Shown: in pieces, positions 55,561-63,941 of the stretch
Layout: every line of letters starts with the position of its first letter
How positions within the stretch are numbered: position 1 is the first letter of the stretch
Source of the DNA: Marinibacterium sp.
Lineage (GTDB): Bacteria > Pseudomonadota > Alphaproteobacteria > Rhodobacterales > Rhodobacteraceae
Length of the DNA stretch: 64,000 nucleotides
Reading direction: 5' to 3'
Assembly (NCBI GenBank): GCA_017643305.1
Contig: JAEPNQ010000010.1
Location: 1-64,000, forward strand
The notes under the pieces: model-generated
Seen by the model: only the letters and a program-made list of their open reading frames with translations
The model's database searches: none
Told to the model about the DNA's origin: nothing
Position numbers and translations under genes: made by a program

Positions 55561-55950
55561 TCAGGCCCCCTCGCCGTTGGCCTCGAGGTGATAGGGTGCG
55601 ATCAGCGAGGCCGCTGGGATTTTCCAGCTGGAGTTGATCCTCTGGATCATGCGCAAGGTCAACGGCCGCTTGCGATGCATGATCTCGGAAGCGCGTGGCT
55701 TGCCGCCAACCAGCTCGGCCAAATCACTTTGCTTCTTCTTTTTGATGTCCATGAAGACCTTGAGCGTCTCGATAGGATCGAGCGCTTCGATGGGGTATTC
55801 ACGGTTCTCGTAGGCTTCGATGAGATCGGTCAGGATGTCGAAGCGATCGGCTTCTTCCGTTCCAGGCGCAGGCGGTGCATCGAAGTATTGTTCGATTTCC
55901 GCAAGCGCCCAATCCAGATCTTCATCGGTTCGAATGGCGCGGAGTTCCAT
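55561..55950 (-). CDS. higA: HigA-type antitoxin
   Basis: 129 residues. An acidic N-terminal half (DDLIEAYENREYPIE region) precedes an XRE helix-turn-helix (KKKKQSDLAELVGGKPRASE, IMHRKRPLTLRMIQRINSSW). It follows the toxin gene by 19 bases, the toxin-first order typical of higBA. HigA neutralises HigB and represses the promoter through the palindromes upstream of higB. Confidence 0.85.
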   Translation of the reverse strand: MELRAIRTDEDLDWALAEIEQYFDAPPAPGTEEADRFDILTDLIEAYENREYPIEALDPIETLKVFMDIKKKKQSDLAELVGGKPRASEIMHRKRPLTLRMIQRINSSWKIPAASLIAPYHLEANGEGA

Positions 55951-55969
55951 TTGTTTCTTCCTGGTTTAC

Positions 55970-56269
55970 TTAGATCTTGGTTACGTCGATCTTGTCATAT
56001 TCTGCGTGGGTACCCACGAACTTGATCATCACACGGTAATACGGGCCGTACACAACGCGGGCGACCAGCCGAAACTTATTGCCGCCGATGTCGAACACGA
56101 TCCTGCTGTCGCCAACGAAGTCCACCGAACTACCAAACATGTCCTTCACGTCCTGCGGGCGCTCCCATTGGGCCCGCTCGACCTCAGCGTACCAGAACAA
56201 CAGCGGGGCTTTTGCCGCCGCATGCTTGGTCCAGTACTCCACAAGTGTTCGTCTCGACAGGATTCGCAT
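55970..56269 (-). CDS. higB: HigB-type mRNA interferase toxin
   Basis: 99 residues. MRILSRRTLVEYWTKHAAAK, a Trp-Tyr-containing helix, then the RelE-fold strands SRIVFDIGGNKFRLVARVVY and the closing FVGTHAEYDKID. This is the HigB (HigB_toxin) family, which cleaves mRNA on the ribosome. The His and Tyr of THAEYDKI are in place. Lower GC than its surroundings. Two operator-like palindromes lie just upstream. Confidence 0.9.
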   Translation of the reverse strand: MRILSRRTLVEYWTKHAAAKAPLLFWYAEVERAQWERPQDVKDMFGSSVDFVGDSRIVFDIGGNKFRLVARVVYGPYYRVMIKFVGTHAEYDKIDVTKI

Positions 56270-56545: not shown

Positions 56546-59500
56546 TCACCCGCGCGCACGAAACACCAGCTCTGGCAATATTGTCTCCCATTCGTCGCGC
56601 TTGATATAGGTTTGAAATCGTTCGTCATTGTCGGTTTTGCGCCAGCGCACGATGGCCCCGACTCTGCCTGACACAAGGGTCGTGTTGTCGGGCGGCGCCC
56701 AGTTTCCGGCCATGCGGCCCACGAGCTTGCAGTTTCGGTCAAGGATCAGCCATTTTCCTTCTTGCTGTTCAATCGTTACCGGATCATCGACGTTTGCCGA
56801 GGCGATGGCGCTATGGGTCCTGTTCGCGTCGGGCAGGCGGCCTGCATAAGAAAGATCGACCGATGCCATATCTGGTACCTGATATTGATCAGGCTCAGGT
56901 AGATCGCGCCGCCGTAGCATTTCGACCTTGCGCAGCATCTCGCATTCGCTGTCGGCTTCTACAAAGGCATGTGCGCCACTGGTTACTACGGCAAGGCTAT
57001 GGCGCGCGCGTGTCATAGCAACGTAGAACAGCCGGCGCGGCGCTTCGCCATCTTCGCCCTTGGAGAGCGCCTTCCAGCCGCCGTTAAGGATCACCACATG
57101 ATCGAATTCAAGCCCTTTAGAGCGATGCGCGGTTAGCAGCAAAAGCCCCCGCTGCGCGCTACGAACATCTTGTGCCCATTCCGCGAGCCATTCGATCACA
57201 TCAGGCACCGGAATGGTCTTATTGCCCAGTTCCCGCGCAAGGTCTGCAATGCCCTCTGCGATCAGATCAACCCAACGGTTTGGAGGTTGCTCATTCAGTA
57301 CCTTGAGGATGTCCTGAATGGTCAGCATTGCCGTCGGGTTTCGTCGCAACCCCGCTACAAGGCGCTGCATTTCGCGTAGGCGCCAAACGCTTGGTAACTT
57401 CTCATTGGCCATCTCGACGGGCAGGCCGAGCTTTTCGGAATAGGCCCGGACGGGGCCAAGCCTTCGCCAATCTCGCGAGATGATCGCACAGCGTGCCCAG
57501 CTAAACCCCGGATCGAGCCGAGAGAGGCGCACCAACTCATCTACAGCGGCCACTGCTTGCGCGGTGTCATCCGCTGCGACATCGAGAAACTGCACGCGCC
57601 CCTGACCAACCGGGTCGTGAACTGACATTACGCCTCCGCCGGGGTCAAGGCTGCGCATTTTGTCTACCGTGATGGCATTTCCGGCTTTCATACGACCCCG
57701 CGCAGGTTCGATCACCTGATTTGCCGCATCAATGATGTGACGCGTTGAACGGTAGTTTTCGATCAGGAACTTAGGCTTCGCGCGGTAATCTTCTTCGAAT
57801 CGACGGATGAACGAAATTGACGCCCCTGCGAAGGCGTAAATGTTCTGGTCATCGTCCCCCACGGCGAAAAGGCTCAATCGTTGGTCGGGGTCTTCGAGCG
57901 ATCGGCCAGCAACGGCAGCAATCAGCGCATATTCTTCTGGTCCGATATCTTGATATTCATCCACCAAGATCCAGCGATATCCCTGTATGAGCGCTTCGCG
58001 CTGCGCCTCTGCTTCTGAGCGGCTCAACCCCTCGCCGTTGATCTGGCGCACTGCCTCCATCACAATGCCTTCGAAATCGCGCGTCTCATTTGCCACGCCC
58101 GCAAAACTCGCCCCCACCAATCGCATCGCCAATGCATGACAAGTTGAAACGGTCACACGCGAAGCATCTTCGCCCACAAGATGGCGAAGACGTGCGCGGA
58201 TTTCGGCGGCGGCATGGCGGTTGTATGTCAGCACCAGAATGCCTCGCGGATCTTCGCGCTTCACACGCAATAGGTAGGCGATGCGATGCACCAAAACGCG
58301 TGTCTTGCCTGAACCAGGTCCAGCGAGCACCAGCACGTTGGTCTCCTCGCGTTCATCAGCAACGATCTCTTGCTGCACCGGGTTGCCTAGATCCTCGACA
58401 ATCTGCTTCCACGCCTTGCCAGTCGTCTGGCGGCGAAGTTCGGCTCCACGCCCTGGCATCCAGCGCTGCAAAAAGCGAGCCTGATCGAGCGCAAAATACT
58501 CCTCCGACAGCCGCACCGCCTCATCGATCCGGTCGAGACCCTTTTCGGCATAAGCGGCCATCACATGCGTCTGGAGGGTTTGCTCACGGTAATGGTCCTC
58601 AAGCGGCAGGAAGTCCTTCTTTGAGAAGCCCGCGCGACCAGGATTCAGGTAAATCGTCATAGCTGATCGGAACACTGTCAGCCCTTTACCAAGCGTCAGC
58701 ACCTGCTGCTCATGAAGCCACAAGAGCGCACGTTCCATGAGCTTGGTCATGTCTTTTACGCCAGTGGATTTGAGAAACGCATCCCCGCCCAGCGCGGCCA
58801 ACATGTCGCCGATGGTTGTGTGCAGCTGCACATCTTTGCCGCGAGCTCCAGCAGGGGCAGTGGAAATCAAAAAATCGAGTAGTTTTTCTGCAGCCGCCCA
58901 GCGCACCGCTGCTGTTTGTTCCACCACTCGCCAGGACCTTTGCAGCACCACCTCAAGCGTTTTGGCTGAGAGTTTGCGCAGACGAATGTTGCCCATTCCA
59001 CCATCGCTGTCGCGACCGTCCCTCTCGATGCTGCGCAAAAGACGATCGAGTATATGTGGGCTCGCATCCTCGTGCCCTTCGCTGCGCAAGACCTGGCTTG
59101 CCGAGGCAAGATCAAGTGGGGAACCATCGCCCACGCCCGCCTCAGGAGCTAGTTCGCGCATTCGTGCTACAAGCGCCTTTTCCAACCGCATTGCGCGGCT
59201 CATGCGCTGGCGCGAATGGTTTTCAACACCAATATGCACCGAAACCGTGATGGCGATATCGTTGCGTGCAATCCCTAGGGTTTCGAGGTCAGCCATCGCC
59301 TTGCTCAGCTCGCGGTGCGATAGCCCGCTGATGCCGGTCAACTCGTCAGTTGAAATGCCTTGATCGGGGGCCGTGTTCATTACATGGCTTACAATGCTCA
59401 AAAGCTGCTCGCGCCGCGCTTGCGTGATGTCGGCGGCCCGAAGGCGGGTTTCGGCTTCGGCGAGCGTTCGCACCAAAAGCGACGCGGGAAACACCTGAAC

Positions 59501-61681
59501 CCGGTTTTCTTCACGCGAAACGAGTGCGGCTTCCTCGAGCCAAGAGACCGCAGTCTTTACCCGCGTGTCGTCGGTGGCGCTGTCGCGGATGAACTCTCGG
59601 TCCTTTTCCTCGCGCACAATCTCGCCGGGCGTTGCTACCACCTTGCCGCTGTTGCGGGTGTGCTCGTCGATGCGGCGGAGTGCCTTGAGAATGGCGCCGA
59701 TCTCGTGGCGCTCAAGCCGCGAACGCGCGGTGAGGGTGAATTGCCGCTCCACATCGTCGGAGAGGTATAGCAATACGCAGTCGGCAGGAGCGCGGTCGCG
59801 CCCGGCTCGGCCCGCCTCTTGCAGGTAGTTTTCCAACGATCCGGGAATATCAGCGTGAACCACAAGCCGAATATCGGGCTTGTCAATGCCCATGCCGAAC
59901 GCGTTGGTGGCTGCAATCACCCGCAGATCGCCCACGCGGAAGCGCTCTTGCACCGACTGCTTGTCGTCGGCGGTTAGACCTGCGTGGAAATGCTCGGCAG
60001 CAAGTCCTTGGTCCTTCAGAAAATCAGCGACGCGCTCGGTCTCTTTGCGGGTGGCACAATAGACAACGGCGCCTGATTTTCCTTCGGCAGGCAAATGATT
60101 GGAAATCACCGTCAGCAGATCTCCGAGCTTACTTTCTTTCCCTGTCGCCAAAACCGAAAAGGTCAGGTTTGTTCGCGTTGCGCCGCCGTCAAACAGCTCG
60201 AGATTTACGCCTAGGCGTTCGTGAAAAAGCTCCGTGATGTCGCGCACCACCTCGGGTTTTGCGGTGGCAGTTAGGCATAGCACTGGCGCGGGGGCCACAT
60301 CGCCCGAAAATTCGCGGATGAAACGCCCGATGTAGCGATAATCAGGGCGAAAATCGTGCCCCCATTTTGACACGCAGTGCGCCTCGTCCAGCACCCATAG
60401 GCCGACCTCGCGCTGCGCTAAAACCGAACGCACCGAAACACTGCGTAGTTGCTCGGGCGAAATCAGCAAAATTGCGGCCTGACCCAGCCGTACCCTGTCA
60501 AGCGCATCTTGCCGTTCTGGCATCGAGAGCATTCCGTTGATGGTCACGGAGGACGAGATCCCAACGCGTTCCATCCCCTGCACCTGGTCCGCCATCAGTG
60601 CCACCAGCGGCGAAATCACTACCGTTAGTGCCCCTGTCTTATCGTAAAGGCTTAGTGCCGGCACCTGATAGCAAACCGATTTGCCCGTGCCGGTGGGCAG
60701 GATTCCCAATACGTTAACGTGGCGCATGGCTTCAGAAACGATGACTTCTTGCAATGGGCGGCCCATGCTGTCGGCGGGCTGCGGGCGGAAGCCTTCAAAG
60801 CCAAACCATTTTTTCAGCGCACCGATCGGATTGTTCATTTCGGCGCACCACCCACACGTGCTCTCGCCGCAGGTGGTGTCGCGTAGTTCGCGCACGAGCA
60901 AGGCGGCTTGTGGGAACGCTGCCCGAACCCAAGGCGGCATAACAGATTCGCCACCCGAGACCGAAATCCATGAGAGTGCATAGGCCAGAGGCCAACCCAT
61001 TTGCGGATCTGACAACTGGTCAAGAACTTGCCCCACCTGTGTGCTACAGGCTTTGCCTGCAAGGAGAGACCTGATCGCGGCCAGCGCTTCGCGGCGCTCC
61101 GGCTGAGGTGCCTTGCGGATCTCGCAGAACACAGCGTCAAAGCCTTCCGCGCGGTCCATACGCGTGGCCAAGTAGTGATAGGCAGTTAGCGTTTCAGGTG
61201 ACTGCGCCGCAAGATCCGTCAGCGCCTTGATCTGGTTGCCCAACACCTCAAAAACGAGCCGTGCATCCAGCTCGGGGTCGTTCACATGCCCCGCCTGCAA
61301 GCGCCCGTCATGGTAATGTTTGACGAGGTGGTGATAGGGGTTGCGTGGAAAGGCCAGCGGATTGAGCCAGAGCGTATCAATGGGCGCGGCTAGTTTTTCG
61401 GCCAACCTTGGACGAGCGGCCAGAAGATGCTCGATATCGTGGCGTAGTATATTGTGGCCGATAATATGTGAGGTTTTCAAAACGGCTTTTTCGAGAGAGT
61501 CGAGCCCCTGCAGGATATTACCTTTTGAAGACACAACCGCTGGGCCGTTTCCAAACCCCACCACGGCCATATCGAAAATTTCGGCGGTCTTTGGATTCAC
61601 TTCGAGATCAACCGACAAGCACCGCTCAAGCAGGGGTGTCTTGTCGTCGCGTCTAGATCTCATGAAGTTGAGGAATGCCAT
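56546..61681 (-). CDS. Exonuclease-RecQ-UvrD triple fusion helicase
   Basis: 1711 residues from the ATG at 61681. A TTG 60 bases upstream is less likely. Three enzymes are joined. A DEDD 3'-5' exonuclease has DLEVNP (D25, E27), GHNILRHDIEHL and HVNDPELDARLVFEVL. A RecQ helicase has Walker A LPTGTGKSVCYQ near residue 327, VLDEAHCVSKWGHDFRPDYR, and QEAGRAGRDRAPADC. A UvrD/Rep SF1A helicase has LAGPGSGKTRVLVHR near 1120, WILVDEYQDIGPEEY, TAHRSKGLEFDHVV, and YVAMTRARHSL near the end. All three active sites look intact. Opposite polarities (RecQ and UvrD 3'-5') are coupled to a nuclease. It stands alone between HigBA and the replication genes. A role in repair or anti-phage defence is possible. 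Confidence 0.88.
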   Translation of the reverse strand: MAFLNFMRSRRDDKTPLLERCLSVDLEVNPKTAEIFDMAVVGFGNGPAVVSSKGNILQGLDSLEKAVLKTSHIIGHNILRHDIEHLLAARPRLAEKLAAPIDTLWLNPLAFPRNPYHHLVKHYHDGRLQAGHVNDPELDARLVFEVLGNQIKALTDLAAQSPETLTAYHYLATRMDRAEGFDAVFCEIRKAPQPERREALAAIRSLLAGKACSTQVGQVLDQLSDPQMGWPLAYALSWISVSGGESVMPPWVRAAFPQAALLVRELRDTTCGESTCGWCAEMNNPIGALKKWFGFEGFRPQPADSMGRPLQEVIVSEAMRHVNVLGILPTGTGKSVCYQVPALSLYDKTGALTVVISPLVALMADQVQGMERVGISSSVTINGMLSMPERQDALDRVRLGQAAILLISPEQLRSVSVRSVLAQREVGLWVLDEAHCVSKWGHDFRPDYRYIGRFIREFSGDVAPAPVLCLTATAKPEVVRDITELFHERLGVNLELFDGGATRTNLTFSVLATGKESKLGDLLTVISNHLPAEGKSGAVVYCATRKETERVADFLKDQGLAAEHFHAGLTADDKQSVQERFRVGDLRVIAATNAFGMGIDKPDIRLVVHADIPGSLENYLQEAGRAGRDRAPADCVLLYLSDDVERQFTLTARSRLERHEIGAILKALRRIDEHTRNSGKVVATPGEIVREEKDREFIRDSATDDTRVKTAVSWLEEAALVSREENRVQVFPASLLVRTLAEAETRLRAADITQARREQLLSIVSHVMNTAPDQGISTDELTGISGLSHRELSKAMADLETLGIARNDIAITVSVHIGVENHSRQRMSRAMRLEKALVARMRELAPEAGVGDGSPLDLASASQVLRSEGHEDASPHILDRLLRSIERDGRDSDGGMGNIRLRKLSAKTLEVVLQRSWRVVEQTAAVRWAAAEKLLDFLISTAPAGARGKDVQLHTTIGDMLAALGGDAFLKSTGVKDMTKLMERALLWLHEQQVLTLGKGLTVFRSAMTIYLNPGRAGFSKKDFLPLEDHYREQTLQTHVMAAYAEKGLDRIDEAVRLSEEYFALDQARFLQRWMPGRGAELRRQTTGKAWKQIVEDLGNPVQQEIVADEREETNVLVLAGPGSGKTRVLVHRIAYLLRVKREDPRGILVLTYNRHAAAEIRARLRHLVGEDASRVTVSTCHALAMRLVGASFAGVANETRDFEGIVMEAVRQINGEGLSRSEAEAQREALIQGYRWILVDEYQDIGPEEYALIAAVAGRSLEDPDQRLSLFAVGDDDQNIYAFAGASISFIRRFEEDYRAKPKFLIENYRSTRHIIDAANQVIEPARGRMKAGNAITVDKMRSLDPGGGVMSVHDPVGQGRVQFLDVAADDTAQAVAAVDELVRLSRLDPGFSWARCAIISRDWRRLGPVRAYSEKLGLPVEMANEKLPSVWRLREMQRLVAGLRRNPTAMLTIQDILKVLNEQPPNRWVDLIAEGIADLARELGNKTIPVPDVIEWLAEWAQDVRSAQRGLLLLTAHRSKGLEFDHVVILNGGWKALSKGEDGEAPRRLFYVAMTRARHSLAVVTSGAHAFVEADSECEMLRKVEMLRRRDLPEPDQYQVPDMASVDLSYAGRLPDANRTHSAIASANVDDPVTIEQQEGKWLILDRNCKLVGRMAGNWAPPDNTTLVSGRVGAIVRWRKTDNDERFQTYIKRDEWETILPELVFRARG

Positions 61682-61870
61682 TAAGCCCGATGGAATTGTA
61701 ATTCGTTGATTAAGCCTAGTGTGGCCCTTTGGACACCGCAAGTGATCAAGTATGAAGCGGGAAGCCTAAGGCTGCGAAAAGACGCAGTATCCCAACGCGG
61801 TAGCGAGGCGGGCGCGCCCCCCTTTCCTGGCGATCCCGCCTAACCGATTATGACGCTTTAGGCTGCCCTT

Positions 61871-62542
61871 TCACCGCACCCATGGCCTCTCTCTCGGCAT
61901 CACCTTCGTCACCTCCAACTCGTGCAATAAACTGCCCGCCTGCAACCCCTCGCGCACCCAACCCAGGGCCTGCCACCATTCCCCATACGCCCGACGCGCT
62001 CCCTCAATCTGCCGGGCATCCGGCCGAAACATTACAGGACAGGCCCGCACCTCCACGGTCCGCCACTTGCCGCGCGACAGCACACGCTCGGTGCCCACCA
62101 CCACGGTCGTTGCATGATCACCGTGTCTATTGCGCTTCATTTCCACAGGGACACAGCGCGGCACAGCCCCTGGCATCCAGTCCGGCGTCAGCCCAGCGCG
62201 GGCGAGCTCAGCCACGCGAATTGCCATCCGCTTGCCGCCGAGGTTGTCGGGCATCCCAGCCACGGTGGCAGCAATAACTTCGGCGTCTTCGTGGGTGTAG
62301 GTGCCCATCTTGTACTGACCCCCGTCAATTTTGCAGCCTAGCGCTGCCCGCTGCATGAGGATGTATTCCAGACCGAAGCCAAACCCCTGGCTTCGCTCTG
62401 GGTCGGGCGGCTCGGGTAGCTCCAGCTGTGCATGCTCAACGCGAAACGCCCACTCCAGCGCTTGCTGCACGGACATGACGCGCTTCGGTCGCCCATGACC
62501 GGTGCGCGGGGAGTGGATGTGAAGATTGCGATCGTGTTTCAC
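61871..62542 (-). CDS. Phage hypothetical protein downstream of the initiator
   Basis: 223 residues: a basic N-terminus (HIHSPRTGHGRPKRVMSVQQ), then a helical domain with QGFGFGLEYILMQRAALGCK, and a beta-rich end (GDHATTVVVGTERVLSRGKW, VEVRACPVMFRPDARQI). Family not recognised. Its start overlaps the stop of the initiator gene (ATGA), so it probably belongs to the replication operon. Confidence 0.6.
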   Translation of the reverse strand: MKHDRNLHIHSPRTGHGRPKRVMSVQQALEWAFRVEHAQLELPEPPDPERSQGFGFGLEYILMQRAALGCKIDGGQYKMGTYTHEDAEVIAATVAGMPDNLGGKRMAIRVAELARAGLTPDWMPGAVPRCVPVEMKRNRHGDHATTVVVGTERVLSRGKWRTVEVRACPVMFRPDARQIEGARRAYGEWWQALGWVREGLQAGSLLHELEVTKVMPRERPWVR

Positions 62543-63549
62543 CGGATACCTCGTTCACGCAGACGCTCGACCGTCACAAGGCCCCGGGCCAGCATGGCAT
62601 CGCGCATTGAGTTGGAAATCGCACTGACAGGCAGATAGCGATCGGAGTTGACCATCTCGGCGTAGAAGACAGGAAGGTCGGTCACTGGCCGGCTTTCAGA
62701 CTGTGCAGAACTGCGGGCTTTGCGCCGCCCTCGGGACTTTTCGTCCGCTTTGCGCTGGGCGGCGCGCTGCATGATGCGATCCAAGCCCTTGGGGCCATCT
62801 GGCGGCTCGGGGTGTTCTTGGCGGGAAGCTTCCGCAGCTTCGAGGATTTCCGCCTCGGTCAGCCCGAGGTCCGTTTGCCAGCGCCGAACATGCTCTCGGG
62901 GCGGCCAACCCTGCCACCAGCCAGGGAGAGGCCCGTCAGGGGCAAAGCCTAGCGCTGCCAACAGTGATCCGAAAAACTCTTCATCGACGATTTCGCGCGC
63001 TTGCGCGTCCTCCTCCTCCTTTACTGGTTTACTTACTGGTTCTCTTACAAGGTTACTGTCCGGATTTCGGACACGGGAATCGGCATTTTCCGGACACGGG
63101 TCGGGGTCAAAATCGGACACGGCTCCGTGTGTGGATTTCGGACACAGGTGCGGGTTATCCACAGAGTTATCCTCAGAAATGGCTGTGATTTCCGAATCCT
63201 CAGCTTCGCCTGTGTGGGTCGCATCGAAGCCGTGTCCGGTTTCCGGACCCGGGACCGCACGATCTTGGGTAAAGCCCGGCTCGAAGGCCAAGATGTAGCG
63301 GGTGGGCATCTGTCGCATGGTGCCTGGATTCAGCCGCTGTATGCGGCGGATCAGCCCAGCGCTCTCGAGCAGCGTCAGGTGGTCATTCAGCGTTGATCGG
63401 CTGATCTCGCAATCATGGGCGAGCTGCTCTTGGGATGGAAAACAGCCGAAGTCCGGGTTGAACCGGTCGCAGAGATGCCAGAGGACGATTTTGGTGGTGG
63501 GCTTGAGCCCACGCTGCTGAATGGCCCAGTTGGTTGCAGCATGGCTCAT
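62539..63549 (-). CDS. Phage replication initiator, lambda O-like, with HTH
   Basis: 336 residues. The N-terminal winged helix (LKPTTKIVLWHLCDRFNPDF, PSQEQLAHDCEISRSTLNDH, LLESAGLIRRIQR) is of the helix_turn_helix_36 type found in phage O-like initiators. Residues 100-165 are a polar, low-complexity linker. The C-terminal half (GWPPREHVRRWQTDLGLTEA, LDRIMQRAAQRKADEKSRGR) is helical and basic. The linker DNA contains iterons and DnaA boxes, as in lambda gene O. It overlaps the VRR-NUC gene upstream (ATGA). Confidence 0.75.
   Translation of the reverse strand: MSHAATNWAIQQRGLKPTTKIVLWHLCDRFNPDFGCFPSQEQLAHDCEISRSTLNDHLTLLESAGLIRRIQRLNPGTMRQMPTRYILAFEPGFTQDRAVPGPETGHGFDATHTGEAEDSEITAISEDNSVDNPHLCPKSTHGAVSDFDPDPCPENADSRVRNPDSNLVREPVSKPVKEEEDAQAREIVDEEFFGSLLAALGFAPDGPLPGWWQGWPPREHVRRWQTDLGLTEAEILEAAEASRQEHPEPPDGPKGLDRIMQRAAQRKADEKSRGRRKARSSAQSESRPVTDLPVFYAEMVNSDRYLPVSAISNSMRDAMLARGLVTVERLRERGIR
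63020..63239. other. Probable replication origin inside the initiator gene
   Basis: Four direct copies of TCGGACACRG (core CGGACAC) occur at 63065-63077, 63087-63100, 63112-63122 and 63135-63148. An inverted copy (CCGTGTCCGG) lies at 63230-63239. A consensus DnaA box TTATCCACA is at 63155-63163 and a one-mismatch box TTATCCTCA at 63167-63175. An AT-richer stretch with TTACTGGT repeats lies at 63020-63060. Iterons plus DnaA boxes plus an AT-rich block inside an O-like gene is the lambda origin layout. Confidence 0.65.
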
Positions 63550-63941
63550 GGCGCAGCCCTCCCAGTTGGAGAGGCCACACGCGTTGTAAACCCGTGGTCT
63601 GCCAAGGCGCCCAGCGCGTCATCGAGCGAGCGCACCAGGGCCCAGCCAAAGCCCTGGGCCAGTACCGCGTCGCGAAACGCCTCCTGCGCTGGGCTCAGTC
63701 GCCCTTTGAGGGATTTCAGCTCGAGGAACAGGACTTTACCGTCACACAGAATGATCAGGTCGGCAAAGCCGGGATGTACCCCCATGCCAACGAGGATCGC
63801 CTGGCGCTTGGCGCCCCGTGGGCCGGCCTCGGTCACCTCATTGGCGCAGTGATGGATGATGGTGCCCTTGGGTAGGGCAAAGCGCAGCGCGGTCACGACT
63901 GCGCGCTGCAGATCCGCTTCTGGAGTTCCGCGTCGCTTCAT
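63546..63941 (-). CDS. VRR-NUC domain nuclease
   Basis: 131 residues of the VRR-NUC (PD-(D/E)XK) family: E8 in TPEADLQRAVV, D61 in GMGVHPGFADLIIL, and E74-x-K76 in LFLELKSLKGRLSPAQ. Phage versions of this small nuclease are thought to resolve branched DNA in replication or recombination. Translationally coupled on both sides (ATGA overlaps). Confidence 0.88.
   Translation of the reverse strand: MKRRGTPEADLQRAVVTALRFALPKGTIIHHCANEVTEAGPRGAKRQAILVGMGVHPGFADLIILCDGKVLFLELKSLKGRLSPAQEAFRDAVLAQGFGWALVRSLDDALGALADHGFTTRVASPTGRAAP

Follow-up and report, generated by a model that had tools for sequence, protein, structure and literature searches.

The Replication Module and Its Predicted Initiator

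The DNA analyzed here, called the window in the following, is the whole stretch of 64,000 nucleotides and constitutes contig 13 of a draft genome of 4.28 Mb. It carries a replication module composed of a predicted initiator gene and two conserved neighbors. Since a tyrosine-integrase-like ORF, recognized by reading the sequence, is located just past the window end (L106 1907-3304), the module is regarded as the early region of a prophage. Its genes and the parts of the encoded initiator are as follows:

61871..62542, (-), phrog_9306 gene, conserved downstream neighbor, phage-family match
62539..63549, (-), initiator gene, 336 aa; N-terminal winged helix, disordered linker and helical C-terminal domains in the AlphaFold model
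63016..63237, (-), disordered linker, residues 105-178, coinciding with the putative origin DNA; residues 105-169 mostly with pLDDT <50
63271..63549, (-), winged-helix DNA-binding domain, residues 1-93, pLDDT mostly >90
63379..63402, (-), recognition-helix residues 50-57, S-R-S-T-L-N-D-H (helix 51-63 in the AlphaFold model), with R51 and D56 as predicted specificity positions
63546..63941, (-), VRR-NUC-type nuclease gene, conserved upstream neighbor; Pfam match below the cut-off and phage-family match

The VRR-NUC-type gene adjoins the initiator in 158 of 207 eligible loci, and the phrog_9306 gene was found in 174 of 273. The latter represents the nearest conserved partner of the initiator and is a candidate for a loader or a late regulator. 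A 1731-residue ORF with RecQ-family and UvrD/GajB-like helicase parts (56546-61741, (-)) has a methyltransferase gene on one side and the replication module on the other; it may be a prophage-borne defence gene. Two small genes at 55561-56269 (-) match PADLOC PD-Lambda-2_B (1.8e-32) and PD-Lambda-2_A (3.4e-32), respectively.

In a Pfam profile search, the initiator matches PF13730 (HTH_36) with an E-value of 6.8e-15 and 55.1 bits (cut-off 25), and its best phage-family match is phrog_345, replication initiation O-like (1.7e-22). By profile match, it is thus assigned to the winged-helix HTH_36, phage O-like replication initiators. The N-terminal domain resembles the initiator structures 4pt7 (Z 9.4) and 4pql (Z 9.1) in a structural comparison with VIA-align, in which SlyA and MepR were matched too. 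This resemblance to RepA_N initiators is one of fold only, as a RepA_N domain is absent from the Pfam matches up to E 0.1. The RP-C N-terminal domain (PF03428) scored 14.0 bits (E 0.044), below its cut-off of 24.4. The C-terminal part comprises two helical portions in the AlphaFold model; a Foldseek search with it returned no match below E 3.9, and structural comparison gave weak similarities to DnaD (Z 6.6) and lambda P (Z 4.3).

An Iteron Array and an AT-Rich Element in the Linker-Coding Region

A preliminary description of this DNA had proposed an origin in the linker-coding part of the initiator gene, with four direct copies and one inverted copy of CGGACAC next to an AT-rich block. All five copies are present, at 63068, 63091, 63114, and 63139 on the (+) strand and at 63232 on the (-) strand, and the array indeed falls into the region that encodes the disordered residues 105-178. 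The following elements were delimited:

63020..63056, (+), putative AT-rich duplex-unwinding element with three GGTT 12/13-mers (GGTT at 63026, 63038, and 63051)
63056..63076, (+), iteron 1, dyad with one mismatch, CTGTCCGGATTTCGGACACGG, directly adjoining the unwinding element
63090..63099, (+), iteron 2, half-site CCGGACACGG
63113..63122, (+), iteron 3, half-site TCGGACACGG
63127..63147, (+), iteron 4, degenerate dyad, ending in TCGGACACAG
63155..63163, (+), perfect DnaA box TTATCCACA, not conserved in the family
63167..63175, (+), near DnaA box TTATCCTCA
63230..63252, strand (.), iteron 5, inverted or dyad site with one mismatch, CCGTGTCCGGTTTCCGGACCCGG

As the dyad of iteron 5 extends to 63252, the putative origin block reaches approximately this position. 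Thus, iterons are located inside the initiator coding sequence and an AT-rich element beside them, as in the origin-in-initiator replicons of the lambda O and RepA_N type.

The direct copies of CGGACAC are spaced by 23, 23, and 25 bp, and hence successive copies fall into different codon frames. All three frames are used, such that different peptides spell one DNA word, and a repeat at the protein level offers no explanation for the array. To estimate chance occurrence, synonymous codons were shuffled in 20,000 trials while protein and codon usage were kept. At least five copies of CGGACAC were reached in 1 of the 20,000 shuffles, and at least four on one strand in 6 of 20,000. An exact DnaA box by itself arises in 4.4% of the shuffles and is weak evidence when taken alone.

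A stability profile confirmed the AT-rich block: of all 40-bp segments of the gene, the one starting at 63019 has the lowest stability, and it ranks in the top 0.15% of the window. Across relatives, the consensus of the unwinding element is GGTTYNCTTACARGGTTAGT, and codon usage within it departs strongly from that of the same genes elsewhere. Val is encoded by GTA in 564 of 566 cases (118 of 3737 elsewhere), a figure inflated by one Val codon that falls within the search anchor, and Arg by AGA or AGG in 354 of 390 (615 of 8526 elsewhere). Outside the anchor the wobble base is fixed anyway, with A in 283/284 and 278/284, whereas a second-codon-position base within the element varies freely (Leu or Pro). 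The constraint therefore acts on the DNA of the element. A scan of 390 Rhodobacterales genomes returned its motif at 62 sites in 46 of them, compared to approximately 5 for the reversed pattern.

Conservation among Relatives

Relatives of the initiator were gathered from whole genomes, viral contigs, and phage records, and belong mostly to Rhodobacteraceae prophages. The set comprises 305 distinct proteins with a readable recognition helix, and iterons were assigned by a strict finder. In 295 of them, at least three direct iterons are located inside the own gene; the remaining ten carry two. The iterons are usually 23 bp apart and lie beside a near-invariant melting element, and in most relatives iterons 1-3 are found at exactly +11, +34, and +57 from it. 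Iteron 1 has a left half-site that retains 4-5 of its 5 bases in 269 of 278 relatives, and iterons 2 and 3 are mostly half-sites. Along this line, the comparison among relatives called for in the preliminary description came out in its favor: array, 23-bp spacing, and AT-rich element are kept in nearly all of approximately 300 relatives.

When the array pattern was searched as DNA only, 94 of 119 matches fell into ORFs with the recognition-helix signature of the family; the other 25 include family members whose helix was missed by the pattern, as well as truncated contigs. In the complete genomes of two isolated phages, the iteron 9-mer is confined to the initiator-gene cluster (3 of 3 sites in RcKemmy, 4 of 4 in LagS-V1). 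Cumulative GC skew of these two genomes has its extremes at the record ends and does not locate the origin. A distant member (L312; MSIEAINWVFDL..., helix SRKSIYR) with the iteron GGTGACACGG suggests the same layout beyond the family.

The perfect and the near-perfect DnaA box had likewise been described as parts of the origin. Both exist in the window, but they do not hold as a defining element: an exact box is found in 9 of the 305 relatives, where approximately 1 is expected, several of these nine being near-identical to the window, and 97% of the family lack one. The conservation expected for a DnaA-dependent origin was therefore not found. RcKemmy has a DnaA box beside its iterons. Because exact boxes occur in just these nine relatives, the boxes of the window are real elements that would be accessory or incidental.

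In polylysogens, initiators of the same class were paired in 13 of 42 cases (13.8 expected, P 0.48). Sharing of an iteron class is not avoided and thus gives no sign of a plasmid-like incompatibility sorting.

Covariation of the Recognition Helix and the Iterons

The iterons of the relatives co-vary with the recognition helix of the protein encoded by the same gene. We number the iteron bases b1-b10 (CCGGACACGG) and denote the helix as S-x2-x3-x4-L-N-x7, where x2 is residue 51 and x7 is residue 56. In 284 non-redundant proteins, Arg at x2 goes along with C at b6 (223) and any other residue with G (61); at x7, Arg is coupled to G at b2 (43), all other residues to C or T (241). Both rules hold in 284 of 284 proteins with zero exceptions. 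When all N-domain columns are ranked by their power to predict an iteron base, residue 51 comes first for b6 (uncertainty coefficient 1.00), residue 56 for both b2 and b3, and residue 52 for b4. A third rule, which relates Ser-Thr or Ser-Ala at x3x4 to C at b2, has 24 exceptions in 241, mostly Ser-Ser followed by Asp or Glu. Base 8 is associated with the wing residue 80, but this link is confounded with a single clade, and we make no claim from it. Rare iteron classes are the best tests of a finer code, e.g., the locus L135 (G250:C1), whose helix SRSSINR is accompanied by the iteron TGACACACGG with C at base 4.

Shared ancestry was taken into account with a tree constructed without the recognition helix, which has few strongly supported branches. 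The two main traits change 6 and 9 times on this tree, and every independent pair is concordant. On supported branches there are 3 and 4 such pairs, too few alone for significance; on all branches there are 6 and 9 (sign test approximately 0.03 and 0.004, respectively). In pairs whose identity outside the helix is approximately 75-78%, a different helix is accompanied by a different iteron. Further loci fit the code in 17 of 17 cases, which is a consistency check rather than an independent test, as several of them apparently were already in the set.

Recognition of guanine by arginine is standard chemistry. Presumably, G at b2 is read directly and C at b6 via its partner G. Type specificity of the lambdoid O proteins provides a precedent for matching between initiator and iterons. 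The covariation of helix and iterons is the best evidence that each protein would bind its own iterons and lends strong indirect support to this view. A causal two-position code, where residue 51 sets b6 and residue 56 sets b2, is the probable basis of the pattern.

Comparison with Known Origins

The layout of an origin inside the initiator gene is already known from lambda O, pSK41 RepA_N, and repABC repC. In lambda and Shiga-toxin phages, the central part of gene O holds ori, which consists of imperfect inverted-repeat iterons with an AT-rich tract next to them (PMC7466680). The analogy to lambda, drawn in the preliminary description, remains useful as a working analogy: the initiator gene itself contains the AT-rich tract and the iterons to which the initiator binds, binding being predicted in our case. 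In contrast to lambda, iteron sequence and spacing are different, the first site is a dyad and sites 2 and 3 are half-sites, and a conserved motif of GGTT 12/13-mers forms the putative melting element. Furthermore, no lambda P-like loader was seen beside the initiator, where phrog_9306 is the downstream neighbor.

The N-terminal winged helix of RepA_N from the staphylococcal plasmid pSK41 binds four boxes in the center of its own gene, and the ori encodes the linker (PMC5703833). Here, the predicted fold is similar to the solved initiator structures 4pt7 and 4pql; pSK41, however, is a plasmid of Gram-positive hosts, whereas our element is a prophage with an HTH_36 rather than a RepA_N domain. 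Rep of the chimeric RepA_N plasmid pPR9 has an N-terminal pfam13730 (HTH_36) domain, and its rep region replicates autonomously (PMC5703833). Although pPR9 is a staphylococcal plasmid, compared here at the level of the domain, it provides an example of replication driven by an initiator with an HTH_36 domain at its head. The alphaproteobacterial repABC plasmids have their oriV in an A+T-rich stretch in the center of repC, and the repC origin studied showed neither iterons nor DnaA boxes (PMC3155836). They share with our locus the alphaproteobacterial background and an A+T-rich stretch in the initiator gene, and our initiator has a weak RP-C profile match (E 0.044).

Geminiviruses are plant viruses with single-stranded DNA; their Reps are unrelated initiators of the rolling-circle type, and their origin is not known to lie inside the Rep gene. 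To the extent that replication specificity determinants of geminivirus Rep are matched to its iterons (PMC2974675), the system parallels the matching of initiator and iterons in our family.

Interpretation and Alternative Explanations

Array, frame usage, conservation, and covariation are observed or strongly supported. On the grounds of sequence and model comparisons, we conclude that the linker-coding part of the initiator gene very probably harbors the origin of a Rhodobacteraceae prophage, for which we propose the following mechanism. The N-terminal winged helix of the initiator would bind the five iterons and read their bases through Arg51 and residue 56 of the recognition helix, a step that is strongly supported by the covariation. 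Once assembled on the dyad that flanks the AT-rich 12/13-mers, the initiator may then melt the unwinding element. Subsequently, the weakly DnaD-like C-terminal domains would recruit the host helicase or primase; we propose recruitment from the host because no loader gene was seen beside the initiator, and the role of the C-terminal part is a guess. DnaA may assist in the lineage of the window, presumably without being a general requirement, since the boxes are absent in relatives.

Alternatively, the sites could represent an operator cluster, the protein being mainly a regulator of the transcription of its own gene, and replication starting elsewhere. The winged helix is MarR-like, dyads and half-sites resemble operators, and binding for this purpose would yield the same covariation. 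However, the sites are found at approximately 300-490 bp within the coding region, next to a melting element that is conserved as DNA in spite of the codon usage. The protein, moreover, falls into phage replication-initiator families, and a Rep headed by the same Pfam domain supports autonomous plasmid replication in pPR9 (PMC5703833). We thus consider a mainly regulatory role improbable.

Even less probable is an origin driven primarily by host DnaA at the two boxes, with the phage protein in a secondary role. The perfect and the near-perfect box are only 12 bp apart, and exact boxes exceed the expected number among relatives; this excess, however, includes several near-identical relatives of the window, and 97% of relatives keep iterons and melting element without a box. 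Finally, the view that the repeats simply result from a linker peptide rich in Pro and Gly and carry no DNA signal, which could draw on recurring linker peptides such as CPxxGHG and RVRNxDTN, is refuted by the frame and shuffle tests, as one DNA word yields three different peptides in three frames and the array is almost never reproduced by synonymous shuffles; besides, the linker is predicted to be disordered and the iteron bases track a recognition helix that is far off in the protein.

Implications

With the probable origin placed inside the initiator gene, it can be annotated for a large group of Rhodobacteraceae prophages and for isolated R. capsulatus phages, in which the initiator has so far been annotated merely as a helix-turn-helix protein. 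The new part is the residue-to-base code between initiator and iterons; no description of the origin of this prophage family or of such a rule was found in the open-access papers searched. If the code is causal, swapping residues 51 and 56 would switch the class of origin that is fired by the initiator, and the family would constitute a natural catalogue of winged-helix DNA specificity. Its natural variation supplies matched pairs of recognition helix and DNA site, each gene carrying both reader and target, and therefore origin specificity and winged-helix DNA recognition become testable by small swaps.
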